This document shows positions 3,382-28,911 of a stretch of 33,449 nt of DNA, piece after piece; position 1 is the first letter of the stretch; each line of letters begins with the position of its first letter. Under the pieces are notes generated by a model, which had not been told where the DNA came from, made no database searches, and saw only the letters and a list, made by a program, of their open reading frames with translations. The DNA is from Bacteroidota bacterium (GTDB lineage Bacteria; Bacteroidota; Bacteroidia; Palsa-948): positions 1 to 33,449 of the forward strand of contig JACRAL010000142.1 of the NCBI GenBank assembly GCA_016213435.1. Direction: 5' to 3'. The translations under genes and the position numbers were made by a program.

Positions 3382-3383
3382 AA

Positions 3384-3447
3384 CCCATCCCCCAACCCCT
3401 TCCCTTCGGACAACCGAAGGTTGGGAGCGAAGCTCGTTTAGGATGGG
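3384..3447. terminator. GC-rich palindromic repeat between convergent genes, possible bidirectional terminator
   Basis: Outer arms cccatcc/ggatggg; inner ccaacc...cttcgg-acaa-ccgaag-gttgg; lies between convergent M16 and deaminase genes. Confidence 0.6.
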
Positions 3448-8103: not shown

Positions 8104-10182
8104 TTAATACTTCAATAGCTCCATGAACTTTTTTTCAAACCTTTCTTTGGGTAAAAAGTTTTTCTCCAGTGTTTCGGTAAAAGGAACAGGAGTATCTAAA
8201 GAACCTTCGCGCATAACAGGAGCATCTAAATATTCAAAACAATGTTCGGTGATGAGTGCAGATAGCTCTCCTCCTATTCCTCCCGTGAGTGTGTCTTCGT
8301 GAAGGATGATTGCTTTCCCTGTTTTCTTTACAGAATTGAAAATAGTTTCAGTATCTAAGGGAACAAGTGAGCGAAGATCCACAAGTTCAACATTATCCAA
8401 TTTGTTTTTTTCAATTATTTCAAGAGCCCAGTGAACGCCCATGCCGTAGGTGATAACTGTCATCCCCTTTTCCGTTTCCCCCAAAGGGGGAAAAACTCCC
8501 TCCCCTTTGGAGGGGGTTGGAGTGGGGTAAATTCTTGCCTTCCCTATCGGAATCGTATAATATTCCTCCGGCACATTCTGCGTTATGCTTCTGTAAAGTG
8601 ATTTATGTTCGAAGAACATGACAGGATTACTATCTTCAAACGCAGCAAGTAAAAGTCCCTTCGCATCAGCTGGAAAAGCAGGGTAAACTATTTTCAATCC
8701 GGGAATGTGAAAAAACCATGCTTCGTTGCTTTGCGAATGAAACGGTCCGGCTGCAGACCCTGCACCTGTAGGCATGCGTACCACCACACTTGCATTCTGT
8801 CCCCAACGCCAATACGCCTTCGCTAAATTGTTGCATATCTGTGTCATGCCTTCACTCACAAAATCAGCAAACTGCATTTCCACCATCGCTTTCATTCCGT
8901 TGATTGAAAGTCCAAGTCCCGCACCAAGAATCGCGCTTTCGCAGAGCGGAGTGTTGCGCACTCTTTCTTTTCCGAACTCTTTTACAAAACCATCTGTGAT
9001 CTTAAAAACGCCTCCGTAATCTGCAATATCCTGTCCCATTAATATGAGGTTGGGATGTTTTCGCATGGCTAATCTCAATCCATCTGAAATGGAATCGATC
9101 AATCTCATCGACCTCCCCCTTTCCTCGTTTCGTCCTTTCTCCATTTCTTCTTGACGAATCGGGGAATCGGGGAATCGGGGAACAGGAGCAAATACATCTT
9201 TCAATTCTTCTTGAGTGGATGGCTCAATATTTTTCTCGTCAAAAGCAATTTCAATTCCTTGCTCAATTTCTTTTCTAATTTCTGATTTATATTTAGAAAT
9301 TATTTCAGTATTCAGAATTTTTTCGGCAAGAAGAAAATTCTCATAATTCAAAATCGGATCTTTTTTTCCCCATTCCTCAAAAAGTTTCGGGTCAATGTAT
9401 TTTGTCCCGCTCGCTTCTTCGTGCCCCCGCATGCGAAATGTGATGCACTCAAGTAGTATCGGTCTTGGATTTTCTCGAATAGATTCTGCGAGAGATTTTA
9501 CTGTATCATACACTTCCAGCACATTATTCCCATCGATCTGAACGGCTTCTATTCCATAGCCGATCGCTTTATCAATAAATTGTTTGCAGCGAAACTGTTC
9601 AGTACTTGGCGTACTCAAACCATAGCCGTTATTTTCTATCGCAAAGATTACGGGTAAATCCCACACCGCGGCAACATTAATACTCTCGTGAAAATCTCCT
9701 TCCGAAGTTCCTCCATCGCCAGTGTAAACAAGCGTAACTTTTTTTTCTTTTTTCAAAAGATGACCGAGAGCGATTCCATCCGCCACACCCATCTGAGGGC
9801 CAAGATGGGAAATCATTCCTATAATTTTATATTCCTGTGTGCCGAAATGAAAACTCCGATCGCGCCCTTTTGTAAAACCGCTTTTCTTTCCCTGAAACTG
9901 CGCGAACAATTTTTCCATCGGAATACCGCGCACCGTGAAAGTTCCGAGATTGCGGTGCATCGGCAGAATATACTCATCTTTCTGAAGTGCCATAGCAGAT
10001 CCTACACTGCTTGCTTCCTGCCCGATTCCAGAAAACCATTTTGTAATTTTTCCCTGCCTGAGAAGAATGAGCATCTTTTCTTCGATCATTCTTGGCTTTA
10101 TCAATTCCTTGTAGAGCGAAAGAAGTATTTCGTCAGAATATTTTTTCTTATTGAATTTTACGGGGGAATCTGCGGTTATCAT
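8104..10182 (-). CDS. Fused alpha/beta E1 component of a 2-oxoacid (pyruvate or branched-chain) dehydrogenase
   Basis: N-terminal half has the ThDP motif GDGGTSEGDFHESINVAAVWDLPVIFAIENN; C-terminal half has transketolase-like beta features (MGQDIADYGGVFKIT, MPTGAGSAAGPFHSQSNEAWFFHIPGLKIVYPAFPADAKGLL). Confidence 0.92.
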   Translation of the reverse strand: MITADSPVKFNKKKYSDEILLSLYKELIKPRMIEEKMLILLRQGKITKWFSGIGQEASSVGSAMALQKDEYILPMHRNLGTFTVRGIPMEKLFAQFQGKKSGFTKGRDRSFHFGTQEYKIIGMISHLGPQMGVADGIALGHLLKKEKKVTLVYTGDGGTSEGDFHESINVAAVWDLPVIFAIENNGYGLSTPSTEQFRCKQFIDKAIGYGIEAVQIDGNNVLEVYDTVKSLAESIRENPRPILLECITFRMRGHEEASGTKYIDPKLFEEWGKKDPILNYENFLLAEKILNTEIISKYKSEIRKEIEQGIEIAFDEKNIEPSTQEELKDVFAPVPRFPDSPIRQEEMEKGRNEERGRSMRLIDSISDGLRLAMRKHPNLILMGQDIADYGGVFKITDGFVKEFGKERVRNTPLCESAILGAGLGLSINGMKAMVEMQFADFVSEGMTQICNNLAKAYWRWGQNASVVVRMPTGAGSAAGPFHSQSNEAWFFHIPGLKIVYPAFPADAKGLLLAAFEDSNPVMFFEHKSLYRSITQNVPEEYYTIPIGKARIYPTPTPSKGEGVFPPLGETEKGMTVITYGMGVHWALEIIEKNKLDNVELVDLRSLVPLDTETIFNSVKKTGKAIILHEDTLTGGIGGELSALITEHCFEYLDAPVMREGSLDTPVPFTETLEKNFLPKERFEKKFMELLKY
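8464..8528. repeat. GC-rich palindromic repeat inside the E1 coding region
   Basis: cccctttggagggggttggagtgggg and neighbouring cccccaaaggggg; encodes YPTPTPSKGEGVFPPLGETEKG in frame; resembles intergenic and aspS copies. Confidence 0.75.
9157..9180. repeat. Octanucleotide tandem repeat (AATCGGGG)x3
   Basis: Three perfect copies read directly; lies between the alpha and beta halves of the E1 ORF. Confidence 0.9.
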
Positions 10183-12327: not shown

Positions 12328-13650
12328 ATGAAGAAAGATAAATCCGAAAAACTTTTTGAAAAGGCAAAAAATTACTTTCCCGGTGGAGTTAACTCGCCTG
12401 TGCGTGCTTTTCGCTCGGTAGGCGGAACTCCATTGTTCATTGAACGCGGAAAAGGTTCTCACATCTGGGATGCCGATGGGAACGAATATATTGATTTCTG
12501 CTGTTCATGGGGACCGTTGATTCTGGGGCATGCAAACCCAAAGGTGGTGGATGCAATAAAAAAAACTGTAGAGAAGGGAAGTTCTTTCGGTGCGCCAACT
12601 GAACTGGAAAATAAACTGGCGGAATTGATTCTGACTAATAACAAATTCATTGAGAAAATAAGATTTGTGAGTTCGGGAACAGAAGCCGTGATGAGTGCAA
12701 TACGTTTGGCGAGAGGATTTACAAAGAGAAATAAAATTTTAAAGTTTGAAGGATGTTATCACGGACACAGCGATTCACTCTTGGTGAAAGCAGGTTCGGG
12801 CTTGGTAACTTTTGGAAATACTTCTTCTGCAGGAGTTCCTGAAGCGTTTGTGAATGAAACTATTGTTTGTCCGCTAAATAATAAGGATGCTGTAAAGGAA
12901 GCTTTCTCAAAATTCAAAAATGAAATCGCCTGTATCATCATCGAACCAATACCTGCCAACAATGGTTTGCTTTTACAAGACAAGGATTATATACAATTTC
13001 TCCACGATATCTGCACCGAAAATAAATCACTCCTAATTTTTGACGAGGTGATCTCGGGATTCAGAATCGGGTTCACTGGTGCAGCAGGTCATTACAATAT
13101 CAGACCAGATATTATTACTTACGGAAAAATTATCGGTGGCGGACTTCCGGTGGGAGCTTACGGAGCGAGTGCAGAAATTATGAATCATATTTCTCCAGAG
13201 GGTAATGTTTACCAGGCAGGAACTCTTTCCGGAAATCCTGTAGCAATGGCGGCAGGAATAGCACAGCTTACTGAATGCCTGAAACCGGGATTTTATGCTT
13301 CTCTTGAACGGAAGACACAGTTTTTAATAGAAGAAATTAACAAGTTGCAGGGTATAATCCCGATAACTATCGGGAAGAAGTTACAAGTTAAAATATTTTC
13401 AATTGGAAGTATTTTCTGGATTGCATTTTCAGATAAAGAAAAAATTCAAAGTGCTGAAGAAATTGCTGCTGATTCTATAAAACATTTTAGAAAAATGCAT
13501 CACGCACTTCTGGAGCATGGTGTTTATTTCGGACCCTCAGGATACGAAGTAAGCTTTGTGAGCAAAGCGCATACGGTCGAGGATTTGAGAAAATCAGCCG
13601 AAGTGATTGGGAAAATTTTGAAAAATATTCACTCCGTGGAAAACATGTAA
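12328..13650 (+). CDS. hemL: Glutamate-1-semialdehyde 2,1-aminomutase
   Basis: FPGGVNSPVRAFRSVGGTPLFIERGKGSHIWDADGNEYIDFCCSWGPLILGHANP; Lys motif ITYGKIIGGGLPVGAYG; NVYQAGTLSGNPVAMAAG. Confidence 0.96.
   Translation: MKKDKSEKLFEKAKNYFPGGVNSPVRAFRSVGGTPLFIERGKGSHIWDADGNEYIDFCCSWGPLILGHANPKVVDAIKKTVEKGSSFGAPTELENKLAELILTNNKFIEKIRFVSSGTEAVMSAIRLARGFTKRNKILKFEGCYHGHSDSLLVKAGSGLVTFGNTSSAGVPEAFVNETIVCPLNNKDAVKEAFSKFKNEIACIIIEPIPANNGLLLQDKDYIQFLHDICTENKSLLIFDEVISGFRIGFTGAAGHYNIRPDIITYGKIIGGGLPVGAYGASAEIMNHISPEGNVYQAGTLSGNPVAMAAGIAQLTECLKPGFYASLERKTQFLIEEINKLQGIIPITIGKKLQVKIFSIGSIFWIAFSDKEKIQSAEEIAADSIKHFRKMHHALLEHGVYFGPSGYEVSFVSKAHTVEDLRKSAEVIGKILKNIHSVENM
13340..13390 (+). repeat. 17-codon palindromic element in frame in hemL (KLQGIIPITIGKKLQVK)
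   Basis: aagttgcagggtataatcccgataactatcgggaagaagttacaagttaaa; core cccgata-ac-tatcggg; aligns codon-for-codon with the element at the start of the PorU-like gene. Confidence 0.8.
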
Positions 13651-13678: not shown

Positions 13679-16600
13679 TTACCGTATTAAATACATTTTT
13701 CCATAATCCTGAGTGAAAAACTGATCAGCTCCGCTCTCGCGCTGCTCAAGCGATTTGCCGTTTAGCTGTGTAACTACCCGATAAAGATAAATTCCATTTG
13801 CCAGCTGGTCGCCAAACATGTCTTTCCCGTCCCATGCGTAATCGGTAATGTTCCTTCCAATGTGAATTGGTCCAAGTTCAAATTTGTCAATTTCCTTCAC
13901 CAATTTTCCGGTAACAGTAAGAATTTGTATTTTAAAATAATCGGGCACAGCAGATCCTGTGAGTGTAAATACAAAGCGCGTGGAAGTGGAAAACGGATTC
14001 GGATAGTTTAGCGCATGGGTAACTGTTGGTCTATTGATTACTTCATAAGAAATATTGTATTCATTTCTGCCCGAAAAATTTCCGCTTTTATCTTTCCCCT
14101 GAACTTTTAACTGATAAACCCCATCGCTCAATGTAGGAGTATAATTGATTTTGCAACTATTATTACCCGGCAACACCGCAGGAGTGAATGAAAACTCTTG
14201 CAAATCAATTTTCTCAAAATCACTTTGTGAGGGACGTTTAAGAAAAAGCTGGAAACTGGTTATGTCAACTGCAAGAAATGTATTTTCATCTTTTACATTA
14301 ATAAGTATGTTCGGTTTTGCCGAAACAATATCCCCATTCATAATATGTACACCGTCAAAGGTAACATCCAGAAGAGGATTTACTTTGTCCACAGAAACAG
14401 AGAATGGAACCGTACCAATATTATTGAAATGATGTTCTTCCAACTGATGTTCTGTGTTGAAAGGATTTGCTTCAATCCATACGTAGTTTTGACCTCCGGG
14501 AAGATTTGTGGTTGAAAATCCGACATTAGCAATTAAAATGCTATCAACCAACAATGGTTTGAGTTTGATTGAATCGAACTGGACCTGATGTCTGTTCGCA
14601 TCATAAATCCAGGTATTCACCCACATACTATCCATGTTATAATCACCAATATTTTCAATTGCCAAACTAAACTTCATACTGTCGCCTTGCTGAACAGCAG
14701 GATTATGAAAAACATAATGCTTCACCGGATTGAGTGATGCCTCCGGAACACCGTCATAATATACCTGCCATTTTTTTAACTGGGGAGGTGTTTTCTTTAA
14801 TCGGTCCTTTACATAACCAAGCAATTGCAGATTCGGATAAGTGTCGGCATTGATAGTGGTATTAAGATTATAAATGTCAAATGAATCTTTTGAAATGCTT
14901 CTTATCAGTGTATCCATAGTTCCATCTTTTCGGATACCGATTATAGTAACTTTAAGGGTATCATAGGCAGCAGCAGCAGGATTACTATTCTGCTCGGGCG
15001 AAACATAACGCCAGTGCATGGAACTCCACTGGGAAGCAGGACCCACTATTTCGGAAAAAATTATCCCGCTGGATCTTTTTACGGAAAAAGTATCGGATAA
15101 AAAAATAGTATCGGTTTCTCTGTCTCCCAGTTTTTCAACTGCATTACCGCATTTATTGCCGATAAGAATATATGGCAAATTATTTTGCAAGTTTGGAAAC
15201 TGCGTACCGCCTATGGACTGAAATGCATGCACAAGACCGAGATTTGTATGCGGACTGTTTCCTCCGAGAAGATCCCCAAGGTTGTTATCATCATCTGTAT
15301 AAACAATCACTTTATAGCCGCAGGGGATAGAATCCTGTAAAAAACGTCTGAGTATATCCTGTTGGGCAGGAGTTTGAGTATAAAATTCCAATGCTTCTGA
15401 CTGATCATTTGGAATGCTGCCATATTTACCAGAACTATTGTTTTTCCAAGCTACGCCTGTAACAGGATCCAGCACCGAAACAATTACAGGAATATTCGGA
15501 TAAGAGAGGTGTAAAGCAGACCCCAAAGAATGGAGTGTATGCTGAAGTCCATCCATATAAAACCAAATCCGACTGAAATAGTTTCCACTTCCTTTTTTTG
15601 TATAGTTAAGAGTGCTTATTTCAATAATATGATTTTGTTTTTCAAACTCAAAGGTTCGGGTAATTCTGTTTGTATCTATATATTTAAATCTGTCTCCTTT
15701 CAGGAACTGGAAGAAATGCGACTGCCCCCATCCGCGTTTGCCCGGGATGTATTGAAAAGAACTTTCGCGCCACCTAAAATTTAAAAAATCACTCGTATCC
15801 CTTCTCACCCGCCAGAAATAAACAGTGCTGTCAGTTAATATTAACGGAGAAGGAGACCATGCGTTATACGGAACTTTAACTACTGATCCGCCCTGTGTAA
15901 CATATGCTGTTTTTTTCTGAGGGCTGTTAAATAAATCAGTCGTATCAATTTCAAAAATATAGCGGGCAGGAGCAGCAAATGGATTTGCTGTATTTGCCTT
16001 CAACATAATGGTGTCATTGGGAACAATTGCATACTTATACGGATAAACAGGAATAATATCTCCCGAATAGATCATGAGTGATACAGCATTCGAAATAGAA
16101 ATATCATTATTAAATTCATTCAGTTCTGTAATGGCGTTCCCCGAGTCCACATAAACTTCAAATTTGTTCAAACCGGAACCTTTCACAGGGTCAACAGGCA
16201 TGCGGATGGTGAGTGTGTCTTTATAATAAATATGAGGAAGGGTTCTGGAATAGGATGCGGATGTGCCGTCAGAAAAATGCCGGATAACAGTTATTGTTAC
16301 ACTGTCGTTAGTTGCTTTTCCAATATTAGTAATGATCACATTTACATCAAAAGAGTCCTGATCGGTGGAAACATACGAGGGAGAAAAATACAAGGAAGAG
16401 GTTGTTACAGCATAATCGGGCAATTTGCTCGAGTGAATGATAATAGAAGGATCTCCATGCAAGGTCAATTCAAGAATAGCAGCATTCATGAAAATATTTA
16501 CAGCATTCCCTTGTATGCTTTTGAAAGCTGCCTGAATATTTTTTCCAACAGATTGACCATATAGCTGCCGAGCCACTCCGTTATAAAATTGGGTGGTGAA

Positions 16601-18862
16601 TGCATTTAACTCGATGGGCGTTCCGGGTCCTGAAGAAGCAAGAACAGCAATCATTCCCCTATTTGAAAGAGTGTAAATCTCACTGGAGCTTATACCACCG
16701 GAGTAAGGAGACTGGTGAATATCTCCTGCCACACAGCCATCGGCAAGAAAAAAAGGATACTTGCCATTGGTATTATCATATTCATCAGGAGGCAAAATAT
16801 TGAATTCAAAAACAGTAGCTGAAGTATGACCAAAAAAAGAAATAATGGAAACTCCCGAATTAATAAGCCCTTTGATGGAATCAGAAAAAGAAACTTGTGT
16901 GGGAGAAGAAGAGTTTTTACAGAAAACATGTCCATGCCCTCCAAAACTTGTGTCTTCAATTATCTTTGCATAGTTATGTACATACCCGCAAAACCACTGC
17001 TGCTGATTTGCATCGGCTCCACCCGCAATAAAAATAGCATGCTTCATCCATTCATCGGGATCTGGAAGCGGATGTTCGTATTCCTTTACTTTAGTGAGAT
17101 AGGTATTTACTTCACTGATGTTCTTTGCTGCAAGCCGTCCGATGGGCACCGGTGATTCCAGCAAAGTGCCATTAAGACCTGCAACCAGCATGTTGTCGCA
17201 TGTGGGATAAGCAATAGAAGGCACAAAACTGATGGCATAATTCTTTCCGGTTGGATCAGAATAACTATTTTGATTTCTGATTTTATCCGGCTGAACGGAC
17301 TTGCCGATGAGGAAAAGATTTTGTGGGAGTGTTGGAAATTTATCCAGACAATAGTCCACAAAATGACGAATAGAGAATGGAAATTTTGGAATGCCGTAAC
17401 CAAATTCATCATACAAGTCATCAATATCTACTACCAATACATTATGATTTCCGCCTTCTGAACTTGCGCGGTAATCGGCATAAGCCGTAACTCCCTCATT
17501 TGCATTTGCTCCCATCAAAATTTTATTCGTGATAATAATAAATGCGGAGTCAACAGCCAATGCGGAATAATCTACAAAAGAGCCCGTTCCTCCCACCGGT
17601 TTGATAGAACTAATTGGAAGAAATTGTTTTTCCGACTTTACCACACAAAATTTTTCTACTCCTGAATTCGGTACAAGAGATTTATAAATACTGCCATTTT
17701 TTGTAATGGGAATCCGTACATGATTTGTTAGATCGTAGAGATAGGGGGACGAATTCAAATCAGTAAAATCGGAAAAATTATAATAAGATTGTGATTGCGA
17801 TAAATCCTGCGGTACATACATCTCATAATAAGTTTTATTTTCAAGATTTGATGTATGGGGGTATTTCAGGGTCACATACGGAACGGTGTTTCGACTGACA
17901 GAAAAACTTCCCGTAAGAGCAGCTATCACCACCTCGGTGCCGGGGGTACTAAAAGAAGCTGCCGGAAAAGAAAAGGATCCACTCAATAATCGGTATCCAT
18001 CAAAAGAATTAGTAGCGATAACAGAGTAAGTATTCGAACTGTTTTTGTATTTCACTTCTATAATATGGTCAGGGATTGCATACCAGTCATTCGATTCACC
18101 CATCATCGCATATTTTATTTGAACATTTGGAGCCATTGCTCCGGAATAAAGATTGGAAGTATTAAAATTTGCAGTATAGTTGCTGCCGGCATAAAAATCT
18201 CCACTGGACCAACCTTCCGATTCCTCATATTCAGGAAAATCAATATTTGTTACAGTAGAACTTCCATAATAATAGAGCGAATGATTCTCAATAATATCTT
18301 CTTTCAGAAAATAAGCTGAGGGAGAGAAATAAGTATAATTCGTATCTGAAAGAAAATCTATAATTCTTTTATTAGCAACTGAATTATTCCATGTGAGGAA
18401 ATAGGCCGAAGTGTCATTGAACAAGCTGTAATATGGATTGGGCTGGCGAACAGATTTATTGTACAATACCCCCTTGTACATAATCGAATCAAGCGATCCG
18501 TCATTCTTCTTTCCATAGAACTCTATGTAATCGGAAGAATTAAAAATGCCATCGGCTTCTCCTTTTACATAGATATGCTGCTCCTGTCCCCTAAAGAATA
18601 ACTGGAAGTTATGCGGGTCCAGAGATAAAAGAGAAATTCCTGCATTTGCCAAAGTCAAAGAGTCAATCCGATAAACCCCATTTTGCGCAACAGGAATTTT
18701 ATAATACTTCTGAGAAAAATTAATCCATTCGTTCCAATATACCTGTGACTGTGAAAAACCGAAAAAAGAAAGAAGAAAGAAGAAAGAAGAAAGAAGAATC
18801 TTCTTAACTTGTAATTTGTTCCCGATAGTTATCAGGATTACAACTTGCAATTTTTGCTTCAT
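13679..18862 (-). CDS. Type IX secretion system sortase PorU-like protein (long C25-family cysteine peptidase)
   Basis: 1727 aa; candidate catalytic His in ISFFGHTSATVFEF and Cys in LADGCVAGDIH (gingipain-like C25); C-terminal NYPNPFSTSTRFVFTL... secretion/FlgD-like region; ATGA overlap with the PorV-like gene. Confidence 0.82.
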   Translation of the reverse strand: MKQKLQVVILITIGNKLQVKKILLSSFFFLLSFFGFSQSQVYWNEWINFSQKYYKIPVAQNGVYRIDSLTLANAGISLLSLDPHNFQLFFRGQEQHIYVKGEADGIFNSSDYIEFYGKKNDGSLDSIMYKGVLYNKSVRQPNPYYSLFNDTSAYFLTWNNSVANKRIIDFLSDTNYTYFSPSAYFLKEDIIENHSLYYYGSSTVTNIDFPEYEESEGWSSGDFYAGSNYTANFNTSNLYSGAMAPNVQIKYAMMGESNDWYAIPDHIIEVKYKNSSNTYSVIATNSFDGYRLLSGSFSFPAASFSTPGTEVVIAALTGSFSVSRNTVPYVTLKYPHTSNLENKTYYEMYVPQDLSQSQSYYNFSDFTDLNSSPYLYDLTNHVRIPITKNGSIYKSLVPNSGVEKFCVVKSEKQFLPISSIKPVGGTGSFVDYSALAVDSAFIIITNKILMGANANEGVTAYADYRASSEGGNHNVLVVDIDDLYDEFGYGIPKFPFSIRHFVDYCLDKFPTLPQNLFLIGKSVQPDKIRNQNSYSDPTGKNYAISFVPSIAYPTCDNMLVAGLNGTLLESPVPIGRLAAKNISEVNTYLTKVKEYEHPLPDPDEWMKHAIFIAGGADANQQQWFCGYVHNYAKIIEDTSFGGHGHVFCKNSSSPTQVSFSDSIKGLINSGVSIISFFGHTSATVFEFNILPPDEYDNTNGKYPFFLADGCVAGDIHQSPYSGGISSSEIYTLSNRGMIAVLASSGPGTPIELNAFTTQFYNGVARQLYGQSVGKNIQAAFKSIQGNAVNIFMNAAILELTLHGDPSIIIHSSKLPDYAVTTSSLYFSPSYVSTDQDSFDVNVIITNIGKATNDSVTITVIRHFSDGTSASYSRTLPHIYYKDTLTIRMPVDPVKGSGLNKFEVYVDSGNAITELNEFNNDISISNAVSLMIYSGDIIPVYPYKYAIVPNDTIMLKANTANPFAAPARYIFEIDTTDLFNSPQKKTAYVTQGGSVVKVPYNAWSPSPLILTDSTVYFWRVRRDTSDFLNFRWRESSFQYIPGKRGWGQSHFFQFLKGDRFKYIDTNRITRTFEFEKQNHIIEISTLNYTKKGSGNYFSRIWFYMDGLQHTLHSLGSALHLSYPNIPVIVSVLDPVTGVAWKNNSSGKYGSIPNDQSEALEFYTQTPAQQDILRRFLQDSIPCGYKVIVYTDDDNNLGDLLGGNSPHTNLGLVHAFQSIGGTQFPNLQNNLPYILIGNKCGNAVEKLGDRETDTIFLSDTFSVKRSSGIIFSEIVGPASQWSSMHWRYVSPEQNSNPAAAAYDTLKVTIIGIRKDGTMDTLIRSISKDSFDIYNLNTTINADTYPNLQLLGYVKDRLKKTPPQLKKWQVYYDGVPEASLNPVKHYVFHNPAVQQGDSMKFSLAIENIGDYNMDSMWVNTWIYDANRHQVQFDSIKLKPLLVDSILIANVGFSTTNLPGGQNYVWIEANPFNTEHQLEEHHFNNIGTVPFSVSVDKVNPLLDVTFDGVHIMNGDIVSAKPNILINVKDENTFLAVDITSFQLFLKRPSQSDFEKIDLQEFSFTPAVLPGNNSCKINYTPTLSDGVYQLKVQGKDKSGNFSGRNEYNISYEVINRPTVTHALNYPNPFSTSTRFVFTLTGSAVPDYFKIQILTVTGKLVKEIDKFELGPIHIGRNITDYAWDGKDMFGDQLANGIYLYRVVTQLNGKSLEQRESGADQFFTQDYGKMYLIR
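18765..18795. repeat. Heptanucleotide tandem repeat (minus strand TTCTTTC x4 plus an imperfect unit) in the PorU-like signal-peptide region
   Basis: Minus strand gattc-ttctttc-ttctttc-ttctttc-ttctttc-ttttttc. Confidence 0.9.
18801..18853 (-). repeat. 17-codon palindromic element in frame at the PorU-like N-terminus (KLQVVILITIGNKLQVK)
   Basis: aaattgcaagttgtaatcctgataactatcgggaacaaattacaagttaag; homologous to the hemL element. Confidence 0.8.
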
Positions 18863-19938: not shown

Positions 19939-20088
19939 TCTGAAGTAAAGTTAAAAATTATTTGGAGAATTACTAATTCATGGTAACATATTTTTGACCA
20001 GAATATTGTGCAATCATTCAGCCTTTTTACTTTGCTGCTATTTCATCCTCTCACCAGTCCGATTAGTGGAGAAGAAAGGAATACAAAT

Positions 20089-20145
20089 CCTCTCCGCCTA
20101 GGTGGAGAGAATTCTCGCTACCGGACGAGCAGATAGGTGGGATTT
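20089..20145 (-). terminator. Hairpin(s) downstream of the RCC1 gene
   Basis: ctctccacctaggcggagag stem-loop between the RCC1 stop and the PorV-like gene. Confidence 0.4.
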
Positions 20146-20148
20146 TTT

Positions 20149-23100
20149 TTATTTTATTACAAACTGCTTTTGTGTTTTTTCAAGATCACCATTGGTTACC
20201 TGCAATAAGTAACTTCCGCTGCTGAGGGCTGCGGTGCTTAGCTTTCTGGTAACAACTCCACTTTCGAGTGTTTCGGTATTGCTTATTACTTTTCTTCCTA
20301 TTATATCATATACTTTTACGCTCAGTTCTCCGCCATCTTCGCTGGCAATTATGTATTGTATGCTTCCGTCTGTGGAAGGATTGGGATAGATGGTAATAAT
20401 ATCCAATGTGCCGATATATACGGGGCGTATCTCGGAATAAGTAAACGCTCCGTTATAATCCATAGGTCTGAGGCGGTAATAAGAAATACCGCTATAGGGT
20501 TCATGGTCGTAAAAAATATAATTACGAGTAACGCTGCTGTTACCTGCACCCTTAACAGTTCCTATTTGTTCAAAGTTGATTCCATACTGGCTCCGCTCCA
20601 CAGCAAAGTAATCGCTGTTTATTTCGGTGGCCGTACTCCAGTAACACTTCACTAAACTATTGTTTTTCGCTATGGCATTAAAATACAGTAATTCAATGGG
20701 AAGCGGAACAAGAGAAATCTTGCAAAGTCCTATAGTTTGTACTGGAGTTTGGCGTTGTGTTGTTGTATTATCGCCTATTTGCCCCGTACTATTTCCACCC
20801 CAAGACCAAAGTGTGCTGTCATTTTTTATGGCATAAGAACCATTCCATCCTGTTGATACAACCCTTATTCCTGTAAGAAAGCCCACACCACCGGGGCCAA
20901 GTACCTGAACGGGAGCATTTTTATCTACCAACGTATTATCGCCTAACTGCCCATTGCTATTTAGTCCCCATGCCCAAACCGTGCCGTCATTTCTCAGTGC
21001 AATGGATTGATTATATCCTGCTGATATATCTGTAATGTTACATAAATTGGTGGTGCAGCCGGAGGCGCCAGTTACTACCTGTACAGGGGTTTTAATACAC
21101 CAACACCCGCCTGCAAAAACTGGAGCCAGTCCGTTACCTAATTGACCAAAAAAATTATTTCCCCATGCCCAAACCGTGCCGTCATTTTTTACGGCAAGGA
21201 CATGATCAGCTCCTGCATCAATTGCGAAAATGTTGCATAAATAGGTACCACAACCTGATGCTCCGGCCAATACTTGCACAGGAGTACTACTGGGAGTATT
21301 CCCTGGCGAATTGTTGCCTAATGCACCCTCTGCATTCTTACCCCAAGCCCAAACCGTACCATCATTTTTTAATGCAATTGAAAAATCATTTCCAGATGAC
21401 ACAGCAACAATACCCGTAAGAAATCCTACCCCTCCAGGTCCAACCACTTGTACTGGAGTAGAACGGTTTGTGGTCGTTCCATCGCCTAATTGACCCGATG
21501 GATTATTTCCCCAAGCCCAAACGGTGCTATCACTTTTCAGCGCAAGAGAATGTTGATACCCTGACGATACCTGTATGATCCCCGTAAGAAATCCTACTCC
21601 TCCAGGTCCGAGCACCTGCACGGGAGTTCTTCTCTCTGTAGTGGTACCATCACCCAATTGATATACAGTATTATCACCCCAAGCCCAAACGGTACCGTCA
21701 TTCTTTAAACCAAGTGAAAAATAATATCCCCCTGATCCCACAGATATGATATTGCTAATTGTCCATACCGCTGTTGGCACATGTTTTTCAAGGATGGTGT
21801 TATCGCCTATTTGACCATGATTATTGTATCCAAAAGACATGGCGCTGCCGTTAGTGCATACGGTAACGGCATTAGTGTTTGAAGCTGCAATAGTTTTGGC
21901 AGCTTTCCAACTGGGTAAAAAACCACCTATTCTTCGGCTTCCTGTGTATGATGTAGGGCTTGGAGTATAATTGGCTGTACCAATGGTTAAGGAAGTGCAT
22001 TCTGCATCTACCACATCACCAACAGTTGCTCCGGCAGGAACATCGTATGTTAACCAAAAATAATTTGTGCCTGCAGACAAAGTTTGTGTTCCTGTGATTG
22101 CGAATGAACCATTGGGAGATGCCAATGTGCCAAACAGTGTGGTGGTGGTAAATACGGATGAGGAGCCGGTATAATAAACATTGGCAGTAGTGATGTCGGT
22201 ACCCGGGTTTGTGCTTCCTGTTGTGTTTAAAGCAAAAGAAGTTACAGTTGGAGAACAACCTGCGGCCACAACAATTCGGATACCAATTATTTCAGCATTG
22301 CTTGTTCCCGGATTAATATTCGCAATATTATCTTGCGTAACGCTGCTGCCGGAATAAGCGGATCTTAGCGTTGCAGAAGTTGAGTTTATCGAACATGCAT
22401 TGGTTACTACGCACCTGTACGTATAATTATTCATACTAGTAGTTACTCCGGTAAGGGTTAATATATCGGTAGTGGCTCCGCTGTAAATTCCTCCATTGGT
22501 AATGTTGTTCCACGAAGAGATAAATTCCTGCCATTGATAAGTCAGTCCTCCTCCTGTAGTGGTAACACTAAACGAAGTAATGCCTGTTGAACATAGTTGA
22601 TCAACAGGCTGAACAGTAATGGGCTGATAAAAGGTTTGTGTTCCGCTTGTATCTGTAGACCCGGAATAGGCTGTAATACCTGTAAGGATAACAAAGTCTG
22701 CCGGAACTGTAGCGCTCACTTGAATGGTGTTTCCAGAAGTAGCAGAAGCAGCAATATCCATCGTTATCCAAAAATATTCAGTAGTAACTTTAGCGATGCC
22801 TATATAACTACTATAATTTGGAAATGTTTGAACACCCGGACCTGTAGGCGCAAGATTTGCACCGCATTGTGTAGCAGTAGAAAAATCATTGATGGCAGAA
22901 GCCCAAAGTTTAAAATTCAATATATCAGAGGCTATGTAAGTTCCAGTAGTTGTAAATGTAAATTGCCGTAAATATGCAAAACTTGAAGTCCCACCCGATA
23001 CATATACTGAAAAAGCATGAATAGGAACATTTAATGAACTTACACAAACATTAGCGGCAGGTATAACTATAGTATCTAAAGTTGCCGTATTAGCATATCC

Positions 23101-23172
23101 CGGCTGCCAAAAACAAAACTGGCAGAGGAAGATAAGCAGCGGTGCTACGAGGATAAAGATTTTGTTTTTCAT
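20149..23172 (-). CDS. Secreted RCC1-repeat beta-propeller protein with C-terminal T9SS sorting domain
   Basis: Start assigned at MKNKIFILVAPLLIFL. Seven WxWG-type RCC1 blades (GTVWAWGxNxxGQLGDGTT...PVQV). C-terminal TIYPNPSTDGSIQYII...LSSGSYLLQVTNGDLEKTQKQFVIK is type A T9SS-like. Confidence 0.88.
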   Translation of the reverse strand: MKNKIFILVAPLLIFLCQFCFWQPGYANTATLDTIVIPAANVCVSSLNVPIHAFSVYVSGGTSSFAYLRQFTFTTTGTYIASDILNFKLWASAINDFSTATQCGANLAPTGPGVQTFPNYSSYIGIAKVTTEYFWITMDIAASATSGNTIQVSATVPADFVILTGITAYSGSTDTSGTQTFYQPITVQPVDQLCSTGITSFSVTTTGGGLTYQWQEFISSWNNITNGGIYSGATTDILTLTGVTTSMNNYTYRCVVTNACSINSTSATLRSAYSGSSVTQDNIANINPGTSNAEIIGIRIVVAAGCSPTVTSFALNTTGSTNPGTDITTANVYYTGSSSVFTTTTLFGTLASPNGSFAITGTQTLSAGTNYFWLTYDVPAGATVGDVVDAECTSLTIGTANYTPSPTSYTGSRRIGGFLPSWKAAKTIAASNTNAVTVCTNGSAMSFGYNNHGQIGDNTILEKHVPTAVWTISNIISVGSGGYYFSLGLKNDGTVWAWGDNTVYQLGDGTTTERRTPVQVLGPGGVGFLTGIIQVSSGYQHSLALKSDSTVWAWGNNPSGQLGDGTTTNRSTPVQVVGPGGVGFLTGIVAVSSGNDFSIALKNDGTVWAWGKNAEGALGNNSPGNTPSSTPVQVLAGASGCGTYLCNIFAIDAGADHVLAVKNDGTVWAWGNNFFGQLGNGLAPVFAGGCWCIKTPVQVVTGASGCTTNLCNITDISAGYNQSIALRNDGTVWAWGLNSNGQLGDNTLVDKNAPVQVLGPGGVGFLTGIRVVSTGWNGSYAIKNDSTLWSWGGNSTGQIGDNTTTQRQTPVQTIGLCKISLVPLPIELLYFNAIAKNNSLVKCYWSTATEINSDYFAVERSQYGINFEQIGTVKGAGNSSVTRNYIFYDHEPYSGISYYRLRPMDYNGAFTYSEIRPVYIGTLDIITIYPNPSTDGSIQYIIASEDGGELSVKVYDIIGRKVISNTETLESGVVTRKLSTAALSSGSYLLQVTNGDLEKTQKQFVIK

Positions 23173-23180
23173 TTTGTGTG

Positions 23181-23402
23181 TTATAAAATTGTTCTTACTC
23201 GCTCGTTCCATATTTTTTCTCTTTCAGCACTAATCTTTTCTATCTCTTGGGGCGTTCTAACGCTGTGGGCATAGATGCTCACACTCGTTCTCCAGATTTT
23301 GTGCCGCTCGGCACGGACTGTTCTTCTCTCGGCACGAAACCTGACTTGCTCTCTTGTTTGTGCAGAGAACTTTTTGCGGAATAAGGGATTTAGTATTTTC
23401 AT
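23181..23402 (-). CDS. Hypothetical 73-aa Arg/Glu-rich small protein
   Basis: 12-nt gap to the upstream gene and 8-nt gap to the RCC1 start; repeated AERxKIW motif. No recognised family. Confidence 0.45.
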   Translation of the reverse strand: MKILNPLFRKKFSAQTREQVRFRAERRTVRAERHKIWRTSVSIYAHSVRTPQEIEKISAEREKIWNERVRTIL

Positions 23403-23414
23403 TTTGTTTTTGTT

Positions 23415-23861
23415 TTACGCATACACTCTTATTTCTATGGATGTATTGGTCATAAATCCATCGGTTGCTGTACCATTGGTGGAAAGCACTGTGCCCACTA
23501 TTATTCTATCGGCATCCACCGCTTTTGCCTGAATCATGTTGCTTCCTGCAGGATTTGCTGTGCATAGCACCAAGGTTTTATTGAGCGTGAACATGCCTGT
23601 TAAGGTTCCATAATATGCTCCGGCAGATAACCGTGTCCATACTATATTGCCTACGGTGTTTTCCAGCACAATGGCGGTGGGCGCAGCAGTGCCTGCCTGG
23701 GTGAGCAGCGCCACATATTTTTTATACCCGCCCGTGAGCAAGCCGGCTTTTACGCGTTTGTTTTTTGTTGCTGTGTTTGCATCCTCGCTGTCTATAATGA
23801 GCAGTTCGTCATTAGAAACAAGTGTTAGTTTTTCTGTTTTTTCCGACCATTTTTTTGCCAT
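23415..23861 (-). CDS. Hypothetical 148-aa protein, tail-fibre/surface-structure-like N-terminal motif
   Basis: MAKKWSEKTEKLTLVSNDELLIIDSEDANTATKNKRVKAGLL resembles DxxxIxDxxDxxTxxxKxVxxxxLL openings of phage/prophage structural proteins; C-terminus IIVGTVLSTNGT. Confidence 0.7.
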   Translation of the reverse strand: MAKKWSEKTEKLTLVSNDELLIIDSEDANTATKNKRVKAGLLTGGYKKYVALLTQAGTAAPTAIVLENTVGNIVWTRLSAGAYYGTLTGMFTLNKTLVLCTANPAGSNMIQAKAVDADRIIVGTVLSTNGTATDGFMTNTSIEIRVYA

Positions 23862-23875
23862 AGTGTGGAGCCCCC

Positions 23876-23899
23876 CTTAGTCCCCCCGAAGGGGGGAGA
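23876..23899 (-). promoter_or_regulatory. UUCG-capped GC hairpin in the leader of the 148-aa gene
   Basis: Minus-strand ccccccttcgggggg followed by actaaggggggctccacactATG; a second G-run could pair with the same C-run. Confidence 0.45.
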
Positions 23900-23921
23900 T
23901 TGGAGTTTTATTAGTTATTGT

Positions 23922-24035
23922 TTATGTGTTTATTTTTTCTATGAACTTTTCCAGATTAGATACCAAAAGCATAGCAGATAATATCTGATGATTCTTAACC
24001 AATATTGTTTTTTCTTGCTTTTGTTCACTTTTCAT
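23922..24035 (-). CDS. Candidate 37-aa micro-ORF MKSEQKQEKTILVKNHQILSAMLLVSNLEKFIEKINT
   Basis: Translated by hand from the minus strand; below the length cutoff of the supplied track. Confidence 0.3.
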   Translation of the reverse strand: MKSEQKQEKTILVKNHQILSAMLLVSNLEKFIEKINT

Positions 24036-24059
24036 AAGTATTGTTTCATTTTATTTCAA

Positions 24060-24221
24060 ATTTCTACTCGTTTAACTTAAAGTTTTCCCCATTTAGTTCA
24101 AATTTTCTCCCCCGAAGTTTAATCTTTCTCCCCCATTTATGAGTCTTTCTCCCCCGAATGTCAAAAATATTCCCCCGATATTGAATCTTTTTCCCCCTAT
24201 TTTCATTCTTTTTCTCGTTTA
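24060..24221. repeat. 21-bp-period direct repeat array with C5 tracts (G5 on minus strand)
   Basis: ccccc at 24109-24113, 24130-24134, 24151-24155, 24172-24176, 24193-24197: exact 21-nt spacing; degenerate flanking units at 24087 (cccc), 24067 (ctcgt) and 24214 (ctcgt). Confidence 0.9.
24093..24206 (-). CDS. Candidate 37-aa heptad-repeat micro-ORF MKIGGKRFNIGGIFLTFGGERLINGGERLNFGGENLN
   Basis: Hand translation, in the same frame as and just past the stop of the 341-aa gene; ATG to TAA without interruption. Confidence 0.3.
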   Translation of the reverse strand: MKIGGKRFNIGGIFLTFGGERLINGGERLNFGGENLN

Positions 24222-25244
24222 TCTGTTTCGTAATACCCTGAATTTACATGTAACGGTAGTAGAAGGGTTCACAACGGTAATCGTGCTATATCCTTTAATC
24301 ATTCCTAATATTTCACTTGGCTGAACGATGGCAGGTGTGCCTGTAGCGGTTTCCCCTTTATATACATGAACGGCAACGGTGCCTATATTGGTTAAAACAC
24401 TTCCAATAATAATACTGCTGATAGTAATTTGTTCGGCAGGTAGCACGGTGCTTATGCGTTCAGTGGGCGCTTGTGGCGAATCATCCACCGTGATGCCCCA
24501 TTCGCCTAATTTTTTTTCGCTGCCTTTATAAAGTTTCATCAGGTAATCTGTAATGGCATGCAGATGATCGAGCACAGGCTCCCATAAATTATCTCTCAGC
24601 TGGGTGGCTTCTTCGGCATTACGGCTCATGGCTAAGTGATTGGCATGAGCGGTCTCGGCTTCGGCAACGGCTATTGCATCTGCATTGATATCAACGCTAT
24701 GTTCGGTGAGGTAAGCGTTTAAAGGTCTTATGCTGGTGGCTGTGGCGGATTCGTAAAGCATGGTCTCGCTGTCTTCATACAGCATTTCTTCTTCGTCTTC
24801 GGCAAGCATATCGGCTATTGCTGCATAATTATTGTGCGTTGCTGCGATGTCTTTTACAAGCGCGGCACGGCTTATGAAATCGGGCGGATAATTTATCCGG
24901 TTTTGATTATCAACGGTAACGCCCCAGTCGCCTAGCAGCTGCACATTGGGGGCGTAAAAGGATTTTAGGAACTGAACTTCTGCGCGTGTGTTTGAAAAAA
25001 CGGGCTCGAATTTCAAATCGCGCAGCTGCACCTGCTCTTCGGCATCGCGCATAAATTGTTTTTGATTGGCATCGTGCGTGGCGGCTGTATTGGAGGCAGT
25101 GGTATCGTCATTCAGGTTGATGTTTTTCTGCACCAGCAGAGCGCTAAGCACGCTGCCTGCGCCATCGGCATCGTGTTTGGTTTTAACAAGCCGGAGCAGC
25201 TCTTTCTGCTCTGAAAAACTTTCCGGAAAATTTCTTCTTGCCAT
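24219..25244 (-). CDS. Hypothetical 341-aa protein with internally duplicated helical module
   Basis: HDANQKQFMRDAEEQVQLRDLKFEPVF...LGDWGVTVD and HANHLAMSRNAEEATQLRDNLWEPVL...LGEWGITVD are two copies of one unit. Confidence 0.75.
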   Translation of the reverse strand: MARRNFPESFSEQKELLRLVKTKHDADGAGSVLSALLVQKNINLNDDTTASNTAATHDANQKQFMRDAEEQVQLRDLKFEPVFSNTRAEVQFLKSFYAPNVQLLGDWGVTVDNQNRINYPPDFISRAALVKDIAATHNNYAAIADMLAEDEEEMLYEDSETMLYESATATSIRPLNAYLTEHSVDINADAIAVAEAETAHANHLAMSRNAEEATQLRDNLWEPVLDHLHAITDYLMKLYKGSEKKLGEWGITVDDSPQAPTERISTVLPAEQITISSIIIGSVLTNIGTVAVHVYKGETATGTPAIVQPSEILGMIKGYSTITVVNPSTTVTCKFRVLRNR

Positions 25245-25265
25245 GGGGTGATGAGTTATTTGGAC

Positions 25266-25463
25266 CTAGTTTTTTTTGAAGCCACTCGTTTTTTGAAGGG
25301 GTAGGGACGCCTTTCTTCCCCTCTTTGAAGGGGCAAGGGGGCTTTTTGTTCCGCTCAGATCAGCTTCCCACAGCTTCTTCATCTCCTTTTGCCATTTTTT
25401 CCATTGGCGGATTTCCTTTTTGGTGGGTGGTGGTCCGGGTAATTCAAATCCGAGTGCTATCAT
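25266..25463 (-). CDS. Hypothetical 65-aa basic protein whose C-terminus is repeat-encoded
   Basis: MIALGFELPGPPPTKKEIRQWKKWQKEMKKLWEADL then TKSPLAPSKRGRKASLPLQK from a GC-rich palindromic repeat; 21 nt upstream of the 341-aa gene. Confidence 0.5.
   Translation of the reverse strand: MIALGFELPGPPPTKKEIRQWKKWQKEMKKLWEADLSGTKSPLAPSKRGRKASLPLQKTSGFKKN
25293..25345. repeat. GC-rich palindromic repeat within the 65-aa ORF
   Basis: gaaggggtagggacgcctttcttcccctctttgaaggggcaaggggg. Confidence 0.6.
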
Positions 25464-25478
25464 AGTGTTTGGTTTAGT

Positions 25479-25542
25479 CCCCCTTCGGGGGGCAATCCGC
25501 TCCGAAGGATTCCTTACAGAAAGGACTCCTTCGGAGCGGATT
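25479..25542. repeat. Two adjacent hairpins in a divergent intergenic region
   Basis: cccccttcggggg, then perfect 16-bp arms aatccgctccgaagga (25494-25509)/tccttcggagcggatt (25527-25542) with an inner tcctt/aagga stem. Confidence 0.85.
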
Positions 25543-25713
25543 TGGTGTTTTGTTTTTTCTATAACAAAGGTCGGTCAAAGAAACCGTGCCGGAGGAATAA
25601 CTTTCATTAGTATCTTACAAACATGATTTATAATATTTATTCGAAAGAATCTTTTCTTTGCTACGCATTAACAGAATTATGAATACCTTGCATCCTCATT
25701 ATATCTTACAATC

Positions 25714-27255
25714 ATGAAAAAGACCAGTGCTGCTCTTTTTGAGTTGATCCGCTCACTCAGCATGGCTGAAAAGAAGTATTTCAAAATTTTTTCCTCCTTG
25801 CAAAGCGGAGATAAAAGCTATCTGAAATTATATGATGCGATAGAAAGACAACGCGTGTATAATGAAGATGACATTCGCAGAACTTGCCGCGGACAAAATT
25901 TTCTGCTGCAGCTTCCTGTAGCCAAGAATCGTCTTTACAGCTATATTCTTCGAAGTCTTGAAATTTATCATAACAACGCAGACATTAATCTGCGCAGACA
26001 AATAAGCAAAGCCGGAATTCTTTTAGAAAAGGGACTTACCACGCAGGCGCTGAGATTATTAAAGACTTCCAAAGCAATCGCCTACGAGCATGAGCGATGG
26101 GAATTGCTGATGGAAATATTGGTGATAGAAAGAACTCCTTACACAACACTGGATTTGTTGGACATTTCTCATCTAAACAAAGAAATGGAAGCCGTATTGA
26201 AAAAATTAAACAACATTAATGACTACCGAAAAATACACCTTAAGGTAACAAACATGTTGAGAGAAGCAGGAACCATGCGCACAAAAAAGGAAGAATCGCT
26301 TGTTGAAAAACTACTACAACATCCTCTTTTACGCAATTCCAAACAGGCATCCTGTGCAGAAGCAAAAGCATGTTATTATGAAATTTGGTCTTTTTATTTT
26401 AGCTTTAAGCGGGACTTTGTTAGAGGATACAAAACATCAAAAGAACAATGTGATTTTATAGAAACACACTTTCACCAATTAAGAGATCCTGAAAAAAGAC
26501 ATTTGTTTGCCTTGAATATGTCCGTGATCTTCATTGGATATCTTTTACCTTCCTACTGCAATATGTATGGCGAAATGCAGGATCTGTTGCAAAAAATCCG
26601 CACTTATCCAACTGCTTCTCTTGTACTTAAAGCCACATTTTGGACATCTTCCTATGTAAATGAATTAAATACGCTCATGCTTACAAGTGACTTTGAAAAA
26701 GTATTTCCGGCTATAAAAGCGATAGAAGAAAATAAAGAGCTGCTGAATCAAGCCCCTGTTGTTTACAAAATGAACCTCTATTACAATATGTCCTATATGC
26801 TTTTTGGCGTAGGCAGCTATGACGAAGCATTGCACTGGATCAAAAAAATCTTGGACCAGCCCACAGACGAACTCCGGCAGGATGTACAGGCAGGTGCACG
26901 AATTCTCGATCTGCTCATCCATTACGAATTGCACAAGGACGAAGAATTTCTGGATTCATTGAAACGCAGCGCCCTGCATTTCCTTTCCACACGGCACCGA
27001 TTTTTCAAAGTAGAAGAGGCATTGATGTATTGCTTGCATCAAATTATGGGCAAGTCAATCAGCAGAAAAAAACGGAGCGCTGCTCTTCAAGAATTAAAAA
27101 CAAGCTTGCTGAAACTGATGAAGAACCCAATGGAAAAAGCAGCGTTAGAGGACTTTGACTTTCTGAGCTGGGTAGAAAGCAAAATTCAGAATAAAACTTT
27201 TGCGGAAGTGGTGAGAGAGAAAGCGAAACAATCTATAGGGTATCATGACCATTAA
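25714..27255 (+). CDS. Hypothetical 513-aa helical (TPR-like) protein
   Basis: Long intact ORF; helix-rich MKKTSAALFELIRSLSMAEKKYFKIFSSLQ..., no catalytic motif recognised. Confidence 0.75.
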   Translation: MKKTSAALFELIRSLSMAEKKYFKIFSSLQSGDKSYLKLYDAIERQRVYNEDDIRRTCRGQNFLLQLPVAKNRLYSYILRSLEIYHNNADINLRRQISKAGILLEKGLTTQALRLLKTSKAIAYEHERWELLMEILVIERTPYTTLDLLDISHLNKEMEAVLKKLNNINDYRKIHLKVTNMLREAGTMRTKKEESLVEKLLQHPLLRNSKQASCAEAKACYYEIWSFYFSFKRDFVRGYKTSKEQCDFIETHFHQLRDPEKRHLFALNMSVIFIGYLLPSYCNMYGEMQDLLQKIRTYPTASLVLKATFWTSSYVNELNTLMLTSDFEKVFPAIKAIEENKELLNQAPVVYKMNLYYNMSYMLFGVGSYDEALHWIKKILDQPTDELRQDVQAGARILDLLIHYELHKDEEFLDSLKRSALHFLSTRHRFFKVEEALMYCLHQIMGKSISRKKRSAALQELKTSLLKLMKNPMEKAALEDFDFLSWVESKIQNKTFAEVVREKAKQSIGYHDH

Positions 27256-27291
27256 TTGAGTATCCTATTTTTTGACTAAACTAAAGTGAAA

Positions 27292-28911
27292 TCATTCTGC
27301 TTTTTTCCATATTCCGTTTGAGGTGTATATGAATATGGCATTTGAAGGAACCTCTTTCTTGAAAATAAGTTTATACGAGCATCCTGTGGAATCAAAAATA
27401 ACTTTGTATTCCTGTGTTTCATACGATTTTGGCCAGCCGTCAATACAAAAATGAGGCGTACGCTTTGCAGGACCGGTCACTTCAATAATATTATCTGATA
27501 TTTTTACCGATAGCAATGTATCAGTCCATGATTCCTGGTATGTTCCTGATATGACATGAATTTTTTCTACGGAATATTTATTATACCGCATATAAATTGT
27601 TTCCGGAAAAGACGAACGGAATGCCGCCACACCTTTGTAATAAGAAGGGACGTTGAGTACATATATATTATCGTATTTCAAAAACGGTTTATAATTTTGA
27701 ATTAACTGTGTGTAATATTCATTCGCAGAATTCCAAACAGTAATTGTCTGCATAAGCAGCATCCAGCTGAGAACGCAATACCCGATCAGCACAGGCAATG
27801 CAAACTTTTTCAGAAAGAAATACACTGCGGATACCAGAAAAATATAAAAGAAAGCGGAAGATTGATATCCGTATCTATCCGGATAAACATATTTTAAGAA
27901 GGAAGAATCGAGTGGCAAAACCGGAAGAAGCGCAATCGTGAAGCACACAAACATTGTCAGTAAAAAATATCCGTATTTTTTACTACTTTTTATTATTCTC
28001 TTGACAATAAGAGTAAAAACTGCACCTGATATGACGAGCAGCACAATACCTGTATAATAATTGCTGAAAATATTTCTTGCAAAAAGATCAACATTGTTAA
28101 GTGGCAAGTACCTGTAGAAAAGAAAAAACTTTGCCAGGTATTTTAGAAAAGTTTTTGCGTAATCGGTGGATTGAGTAATGCTTTCCACAGTTCCTCCATG
28201 CCAGAACCAGTGTCCGCTCCAGATCTTACATGCAATAAAAAAAACAGCTATGAAAAATAACTGCACTACGATTACCTGAGTAAATAACTGTTTGATAGAA
28301 ATCGAAGTTTTGTTTGTCCTCCTGAATAAAAGAAAGAGGACAATGTAGATCAGCGGGCATATTATCGTAAACTCATAGGAAAAAATTCCGAGTAAAAATA
28401 ACAGCTGAATGACAATTAATTTTTTTACGGAAGTAGCCGAAAGGAACAGGATAAAAAAATAAAATCCCATGAATGTTACAAATGCATGGAAAAGTCCGCG
28501 AAATAAAAGAGGCATCCAGACAACATATTCTGTCTGGTAGGGAGAAATTAAAAAAGCAAGAGCCGAAAAAAAAGCAATGACTGTTTCCTGTTTATGAAAA
28601 AAAAGTGTGAGCAGTTTCCTGGCAATTAAAAAAACAAGAAATGCATTAACAGCATGCAGCAGCGTAGAAGTAAGTATCCAGCAAACTGATGACATTCCAA
28701 ATACTTTATAAAGTAACTGGAGCAAAGGCAAGCCGACAAAATAAGGAGCGGAAAAATGTGCGCTTTCGTTGAAACCGGCAACAAATCCTTTTTCAAAAAG
28801 TAATAAATGCGAATAGTTATCGCCCGGAACAAAAATATTCAGGCAGTCTTTGTAGGTAAAAAATCCTATGGCGGTAAGAAGAAAAAAAACAATAAGGTTT
28901 TGCCTGCGCAT
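27292..28911 (-). CDS. Polytopic membrane protein, possibly GT-C type glycosyltransferase-like
   Basis: 539 aa with many hydrophobic segments and a soluble C-terminal domain; family assignment weak. Confidence 0.6.
   Translation of the reverse strand: MRRQNLIVFFLLTAIGFFTYKDCLNIFVPGDNYSHLLLFEKGFVAGFNESAHFSAPYFVGLPLLQLLYKVFGMSSVCWILTSTLLHAVNAFLVFLIARKLLTLFFHKQETVIAFFSALAFLISPYQTEYVVWMPLLFRGLFHAFVTFMGFYFFILFLSATSVKKLIVIQLLFLLGIFSYEFTIICPLIYIVLFLLFRRTNKTSISIKQLFTQVIVVQLFFIAVFFIACKIWSGHWFWHGGTVESITQSTDYAKTFLKYLAKFFLFYRYLPLNNVDLFARNIFSNYYTGIVLLVISGAVFTLIVKRIIKSSKKYGYFLLTMFVCFTIALLPVLPLDSSFLKYVYPDRYGYQSSAFFYIFLVSAVYFFLKKFALPVLIGYCVLSWMLLMQTITVWNSANEYYTQLIQNYKPFLKYDNIYVLNVPSYYKGVAAFRSSFPETIYMRYNKYSVEKIHVISGTYQESWTDTLLSVKISDNIIEVTGPAKRTPHFCIDGWPKSYETQEYKVIFDSTGCSYKLIFKKEVPSNAIFIYTSNGIWKKAE

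Follow-up and report, generated by a model that had tools for sequence, protein, structure and literature searches.

A 21-bp-period array behind a two-domain DWG gene of a Bacteroidota bacterium and its place among arrays with a common step and unrelated units

An intergenic array with a period of 21 bp was found directly after the gene for a 341-aa protein in the window, which is the whole stretch of 33,449 nucleotides that was analysed (contig C90 of G000, a 3.7-Mb Bacteroidota genome in 216 contigs). The array is best read as a helically phased, non-coding element of an accessory gene module. Arrays with a period of 21 bp or a multiple of it (21n), built from unrelated units and tied to particular gene families, very probably make up a class; the window array shares the 21n period and adjoins a recurring family, the two-domain DWG genes, on the usual 3' side. 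A description of such a period-conserved, sequence-free array class tied to gene families of this kind was not found in the open-licence full-text literature. The features of the window are:

19939 to 27291, no strand: accessory segment of ~7.3 kb between porV and the gene for a 539-aa protein, absent in five congeners
19973 to 20030, no strand: direct repeat bracketing the segment, porV-side copy, 74% identity over 47 columns to 27259-27306
20149 to 23211, minus strand: gene for a 1020-aa RCC1-repeat protein with a type IX secretion tail (Pfam), within the inserted segment
23415 to 23861, minus strand: 148-aa gene downstream of the array and on the same strand, product with 39% identity over 91% to a Flavobacterium phage protein
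23872 to 23900, no strand: G/C-rich palindrome ccccccttcggggggac between the array and the 148-aa gene, similar short pieces dispersed in the genome
24067 to 24218, minus strand: 21-bp-period array, minus-strand unit approximately TTCGGGGGAGAAAGATTAAAC (TRF, autocorrelation with shuffles, tract positions)
24093 to 24206, minus strand: 37-aa ORF across the array (MKIGGKRFNIGGIFLTFGGERLINGGERLNFGGENLN) with ATG and stop (translation)
24219 to 25244, minus strand: 341-aa gene with two DWG units of ~140 aa and a C-terminal extension (ORF and family searches), array after its stop
25714 to 27255, plus strand: 513-aa BT2802-like gene (NCBIfam NF058569), divergent from the 341-aa gene
27256 to 27309, no strand: second bracketing copy of the direct repeat, where the 539-aa gene ends

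The clear units of the array lie at 24097-24211, where TRF reported a period of 21 with 5.5 copies and 68% matches, and they are flanked by degenerate units on both sides. Five CCCCC tracts start at 24109, 24130, 24151, 24172 and 24193, in steps of exactly 21 bp and just where the first-pass annotation had placed them; in none of 2000 dinucleotide shuffles were more than two such tracts in phase. The lag-21 identity amounted to 0.64 (24081-24215) compared to 0.55 for the best of 2000 dinucleotide shuffles at any lag from 10 to 59. An autocorrelation without a significant 21-nt period had been named as a refutation; the one obtained has a significant 21-nt period that 0 of 2000 shuffles reached, and with head-to-tail units of 10-60 bp repeated beyond chance the array is a minisatellite. 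The degenerate units had been described as continuing the phase: ctcgt is present at 24067 and 24214 as claimed, but at the outer CCCC at 24087 the phase slips by one base (22 instead of 21 bp to the next tract). The array separates the stop of the 341-aa gene from the 148-aa gene and begins, as claimed, at the stop codon, a TAA at 24219-24221 on the minus strand. A search of the genome for the array, suggested earlier as a check, was run and found it to be unique: no second copy of array and flanks was detected in its own genome, where only short pieces of the nearby palindrome recur. A CRISPR array was ruled out, the 21-bp units being contiguous and without spacers. The proposal of an iteron-like locus gained no support; the contig carries chromosomal genes (porU/porV, lepA, glmS), and no replication initiator was noticed on reading the ORFs of the window.

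A pattern search revealed GGGG tracts at 21-bp steps elsewhere in the window genome (C76, C106, C122 and C155), in unrelated units. TRF was applied to stretches of the window genome, three congeners and ~19 genomes of other families, and a period of 21 was dominant in the window genome and in the congener G005; many arrays of 21 bp, or of 42/63 bp, with unrelated units were present in the stretches from the genus and the class. Of 157 intergenic gaps of at least 300 bp, 18 had an array at lag 21, 42 or 63; the numbers for base periods of 17, 18, 19, 20, 22, 23, 24 and 25 were 0, 0, 0, 1, 2, 1, 0 and 0. Arrays were called at a fixed identity threshold of 0.68 over 63 bp, on which the association counts depend, and some of the loci that miss it do show an array, with a period of 20, 41, 43 or 44 bp or with an identity slightly too low. 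Steps other than 21n were 20/40/61 bp (L226), 41 bp (L238, L393), 43 bp (L243) and 44 bp (L223), which fit helical rather than codon spacing; 21 bp correspond to two turns of the double helix as well as to seven codons. The main arrays have 5-22 units and no shared motif. The same 21-bp step with a different unit each time suggests that spacing matters rather than sequence. Should conservation concern the step instead of the sequence, the arrays would provide a natural example in which a function of helical phase can be tested in bacteria.

One 21-bp array (TTTAACGTTGGGGTCGCTTCG) was seen in two dispersed copies, at C106:15513-15701 of the window genome and at the contig ends of C122/C155, with leader and tail in common; C122 and C155, both broken inside this array, are probably neighbours. 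Because several contigs end inside or near arrays, some assembly breaks are possibly due to them.

The families associated with the arrays are DWG, Fn3-like proteins with a C-terminal fibronectin type III fold (PDB profile), single-domain LytTR regulators and small HTH proteins, and the arrays mark a set of accessory gene families left unnamed by the annotation libraries searched. DWG genes occur patchily in 11 and Fn3-like genes in 31 of 198 related genomes. A 21n array was present within 800 bp of 32 of 49 Fn3-like loci and 13 of 17 DWG loci, compared to 26 of 600 control ORFs (P 4e-26 and 6e-14, respectively). The enrichment persisted against long intergenic gaps (P 8e-11 for Fn3-like, 2e-8 for DWG) and when each genome contributed a single Fn3 locus (15/29 with an array vs 18/157 gaps, P 4e-6). 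Arrays above the threshold are absent from a fair share of the family members, and L029, L056 and L080 have arrays away from the associated families. The side is characteristic: 29 of the Fn3 arrays lie on the 5' side and 3 on the 3' side, and members of the small HTH family have 5' arrays in L362, L363, L398, L399 and L401. In L280 and L284, inverted repeats that seem to have changed in a compensatory way (ACACGTTGC..GCAACGTGT; ACTCGATGC..GCATCGAGT) were seen just before the start codon of the Fn3-like gene, and L281 has a similar, less regular leader; the L280/L284 leaders had no match in Rfam and are a possible structured leader or transposon-like end.

The DWG unit of the 341-aa protein comprises ~140 aa and ends in LGxWGxxVDxSP; the two units of the protein are 32% identical to each other. 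The protein had no match in Pfam, NCBIfam or PHROGs and no credible relative among PDB sequences, and the AlphaFold2 models of its two units are helical, with a mean pLDDT of 46 too poor for use. Viral, phage or plasmid links of the 341-aa and the Fn3-like genes were searched for and not found. In the genus-mate G005 the stop of the homologue (L018) is immediately followed by a 21-bp array with another unit, and all seven array-bearing loci of two-domain DWG genes (window, L018, L247, L250, L258, L260 and L261), which represent two genomes of the genus of the window and three other family-level lineages, have the array 3' with otherwise unrelated neighbours. One-domain DWG genes have arrays on the 5' side. 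The link of the array to the 341-aa gene is thus borne out by its recurrence directly 3' of homologues. At L018, a palindromic, MITE-like element with GGACTTACGCA ends (3380-3512), of which many near-identical copies are present in G005, was seen right after the array.

In three module loci the array is closely preceded by a single-domain LytTR gene, in two of them with a significant match to PF04397 of Pfam. The array is directly 3' in 7 of 9 close homologues; the first three loci were found through the modules, and only the further six are independent evidence. Of these, L392, L394 and L397 reach the threshold with arrays directly 3', L395 is at the threshold limit, L393 has a 41-bp array and L396 is truncated. 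Distant LytTR loci had no array (0/27). The array is followed by an orphan gene of the same orientation in L332, L333, L283, L393, L394, L395 and L397, counted over loci extending far enough (L392 was followed only as far as its array), and a LytTR gene is present in the related modules L332, L283, L394 and L397. Directly after the LytTR stop of L332, L393, L394 and L395 there are 20-21-bp direct repeats (ACCGCTGCTCnGGAGAA) which resemble LytTR boxes such as ACCGCTTAT (comparison with PMC6193735), are conserved and are separate from the variable main arrays. In the window, no LytTR gene was recognised among the ORFs, the genome search for close LytTR homologues gave no match on C90, and a relaxed consensus gave no pair of LytTR-like boxes at a 19-23-bp step within 22901-25720.

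The module of the window is an accessory one. In five genomes of the same genus (G001-G005) porV adjoins the 539-aa gene at a distance of ~80-205 bp; the window has 7.3 kb at this place, with the RCC1 gene, the array and the genes for the 148-aa, 341-aa and 513-aa (BT2802-like) proteins. The Flavobacterium phage relative of the 148-aa protein is annotated as DUF285 domain-containing, and a homologue of the 148-aa gene is present in another array module of the window genome (L277, 2476-2934). The 513-aa protein matched NF058569 over 499 of 513 residues (E 2.4e-45), yet below the family cut-off; the BT2802 family we take to be ribose-utilisation regulators. Two paralogues of its gene (L030, L177) are present in the sampled parts of the window genome, both beside array modules; scans of the genome_contigs collection gave no homologue of the 513-aa gene. 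Elsewhere in the window, the housekeeping genes for aspartyl-tRNA synthetase (4002-5846) and a dehydrogenase E1 (8104-10182) have short in-frame repeat-peptide insertions, which look like palindromic elements inserted in genes, and a second recurring insert peptide (ITIGKKLQVK / ITIGNKLQVKK) was seen in an aminotransferase (12328-13650) and near the N-terminus of a PorU-like protein (13679-18862).

How the arrays change can be seen from paralogues. The coding DNA of L250 and L261 in G128 is 91% identical, but identity ends at the stop codon and different arrays follow; L285/L286 of G006 (78%) likewise carry different arrays. Related arrays were kept in L220/L288 (84% over 2.5 kb) and L253/L266, and when empty sites for L220 were looked for within its genus, none of the matches was informative. 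In many arrays the repeat is stronger at 42 or 63 bp than at 21 bp, the higher-order pattern expected of unequal exchange. Over 30 arrays other than the short one of the window, conserved positions were on average concentrated in one part of the unit (mean z 0.9); this was clear in about one quarter of the arrays and clearest in L247, L261, L236 and L258.

We propose that the array is a non-coding minisatellite with a step fixed at two helical turns (21 bp) and a free sequence, which would be the cis-acting part of a small accessory module of one gene from a limited set of families and one array, whose side is conserved. That the step stays constant while the sequence is free suggests geometry, with sites on one helix face. 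Many copies of a short site on that face would most likely provide a multi-site scaffold for cooperative binding by a protein, and the bound array would control or insulate the module genes next to it in their expression. Unequal recombination would make the units turn over quickly in number and sequence. We give nearly an even chance to the view that the arrays work by phased protein binding. Of this view, also raised in the first-pass annotation, the phasing stood, together with the recurrence of the step in unrelated units and the helical variants, but the bound protein and its effect on expression are what we infer from the DNA. The binder may be an architectural protein or a regulator of the LytTR-like or HTH type; the LytTR modules would be the best guide to its kind, an architectural protein being equally possible. 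Sequence-specific binding by the product of the adjoining gene is hard to square with the 91%-identical gene copies of G128 and their unrelated arrays. We suggest tentatively, and somewhat less firmly than phased binding, that this is an undescribed bacterial cis-element, a sequence-independent, period-constrained satellite whose unit is replaced and which forms mobile two-part modules with several uncharacterised families across Bacteroidia, some of them regulators and one phage-related. Centromeric satellites keep their monomer length, to which the 21-bp step, kept while the unit is replaced, can be likened.

The main rival is a neutral or selfish minisatellite that arises by slippage or recombination with a preferred 21-bp step in islands which tolerate functionless arrays. 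Unrelated units and 42/63-bp higher-order repeats would be products of unequal exchange, and the arrays away from the families (L029, L056, L080) fit as well, but the conserved side in each family and the strong enrichment by particular families over other genes and long gaps would need an extra cause, and we regard this explanation as rather unlikely. The end of L250/L261 identity at the stop codon, where the arrays differ, is also what would be seen if arrays were favoured targets at which small gene cassettes insert or recombine, which would bring related genes next to unrelated arrays. The window segment is indeed an insertion bracketed by a diverged ~47-bp repeat, and the module genes are patchy (31 and 11 of 198 genomes). 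However, the bracketing repeat differs from the array, no sign of a recombinase was noticed among the module genes, and gene and array were kept together in some paralogues (L220/L288); we regard landing sites as improbable. Still smaller is the chance that the array is, like BrickBuilt of Porphyromonas gingivalis, a minisatellite within a MITE: it has tandem ~21-bp units and is intergenic in a Bacteroidota genome, but array and flanks have no second genomic copy save the short palindrome pieces, and a reading of the flanks brought up no terminal inverted repeats. We consider this next to negligible.

Since 21 bp are seven codons, the array may also encode a microprotein of heptapeptide repeats. 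Across the window array runs a 37-aa ORF that has both an ATG and a stop, and sense ORFs of LytTR modules run through the array, some with similar starts (MKTSATYKE, MKTRVTYQR, MKAVALYKE). However, changes between the units of the window array have no synonymous bias in any reading frame, and pairwise tests of 18 and then 39 arrays found no consistent frame or strand (z = -0.9 for the most open sense frame of the 39). The seven 3' arrays of two-domain DWG genes alone gave a z of 2.3, treated as chance among many tests. Stops block the sense frame in the homologous arrays L235, L236, L276, L363 and L402, openness of array-spanning ORFs was barely higher in sense (32/63) than in antisense (25/63), without a clear difference, and the frame is broken by the periods of 20, 41, 43 and 44 and by the 1-bp phase slip of the window array. 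The peptide-repeat reading of the first pass is not supported and we consider it very improbable, though less so than a MITE, and the 37-aa ORF is judged to be a by-product of the 21-bp period; arrays may explain some repeat-peptide ORFs in Bacteroidota genomes. Sense ORFs through the arrays of L283, L393, L394, L397 and L194 begin alike ahead of the repeats (MKTQATDTK, MKTSATYKE, MKTRVTYQR, MKAVALYKE, MKSATNTYEK), and these MKTxATYKE-like starts are possible leader peptides.

Intrinsic curvature is not supported, the units having no 10.5-bp W/S or AA/TT harmonic. A search of Rfam found no known RNA in the arrays, and RNA folding was slightly better than in column-permuted controls (mean z ~-1 on both strands), driven by a minority of arrays to which the window array does not belong.

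The nearest published systems resemble the 21n arrays in part. LytTR operators consist of 9-bp direct repeats 11-13 bp apart, corresponding to a 20-22-bp step (PMC6193735). Like the arrays, they are short direct repeats on one helix face beside LytTR genes, and several related modules open with a LytTR gene and LytTR-box-like repeats, but the operators are mostly pairs of a loosely conserved 9-mer, whereas the main arrays run to 5-22 units with no motif in common, and no LytTR gene adjoins the array of the window. BrickBuilt and MITE464/PgRS of P. gingivalis are also intergenic, spacerless tandem arrays of a Bacteroidota genome, with units of 23 or 41 bp and proposed effects on neighbouring transcription (PMC4596501). 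Unlike the 21n arrays, BrickBuilt forms a single sequence family, of 19 copies with terminal repeats like those of IS5 (PMC4596501); each 21n array has its own unit, and the arrays have only the step in common and are tied to gene families. The TAACTGA heptamer repeats of Beggiatoaceae, Cyanobacteria and Bacteroidetes (PMC4679880) are likewise intergenic, possibly regulatory direct-repeat arrays, but they use one fixed 7-mer and their adjoining genes follow no pattern, in contrast to the free sequence and the recurring gene families of the 21n arrays.
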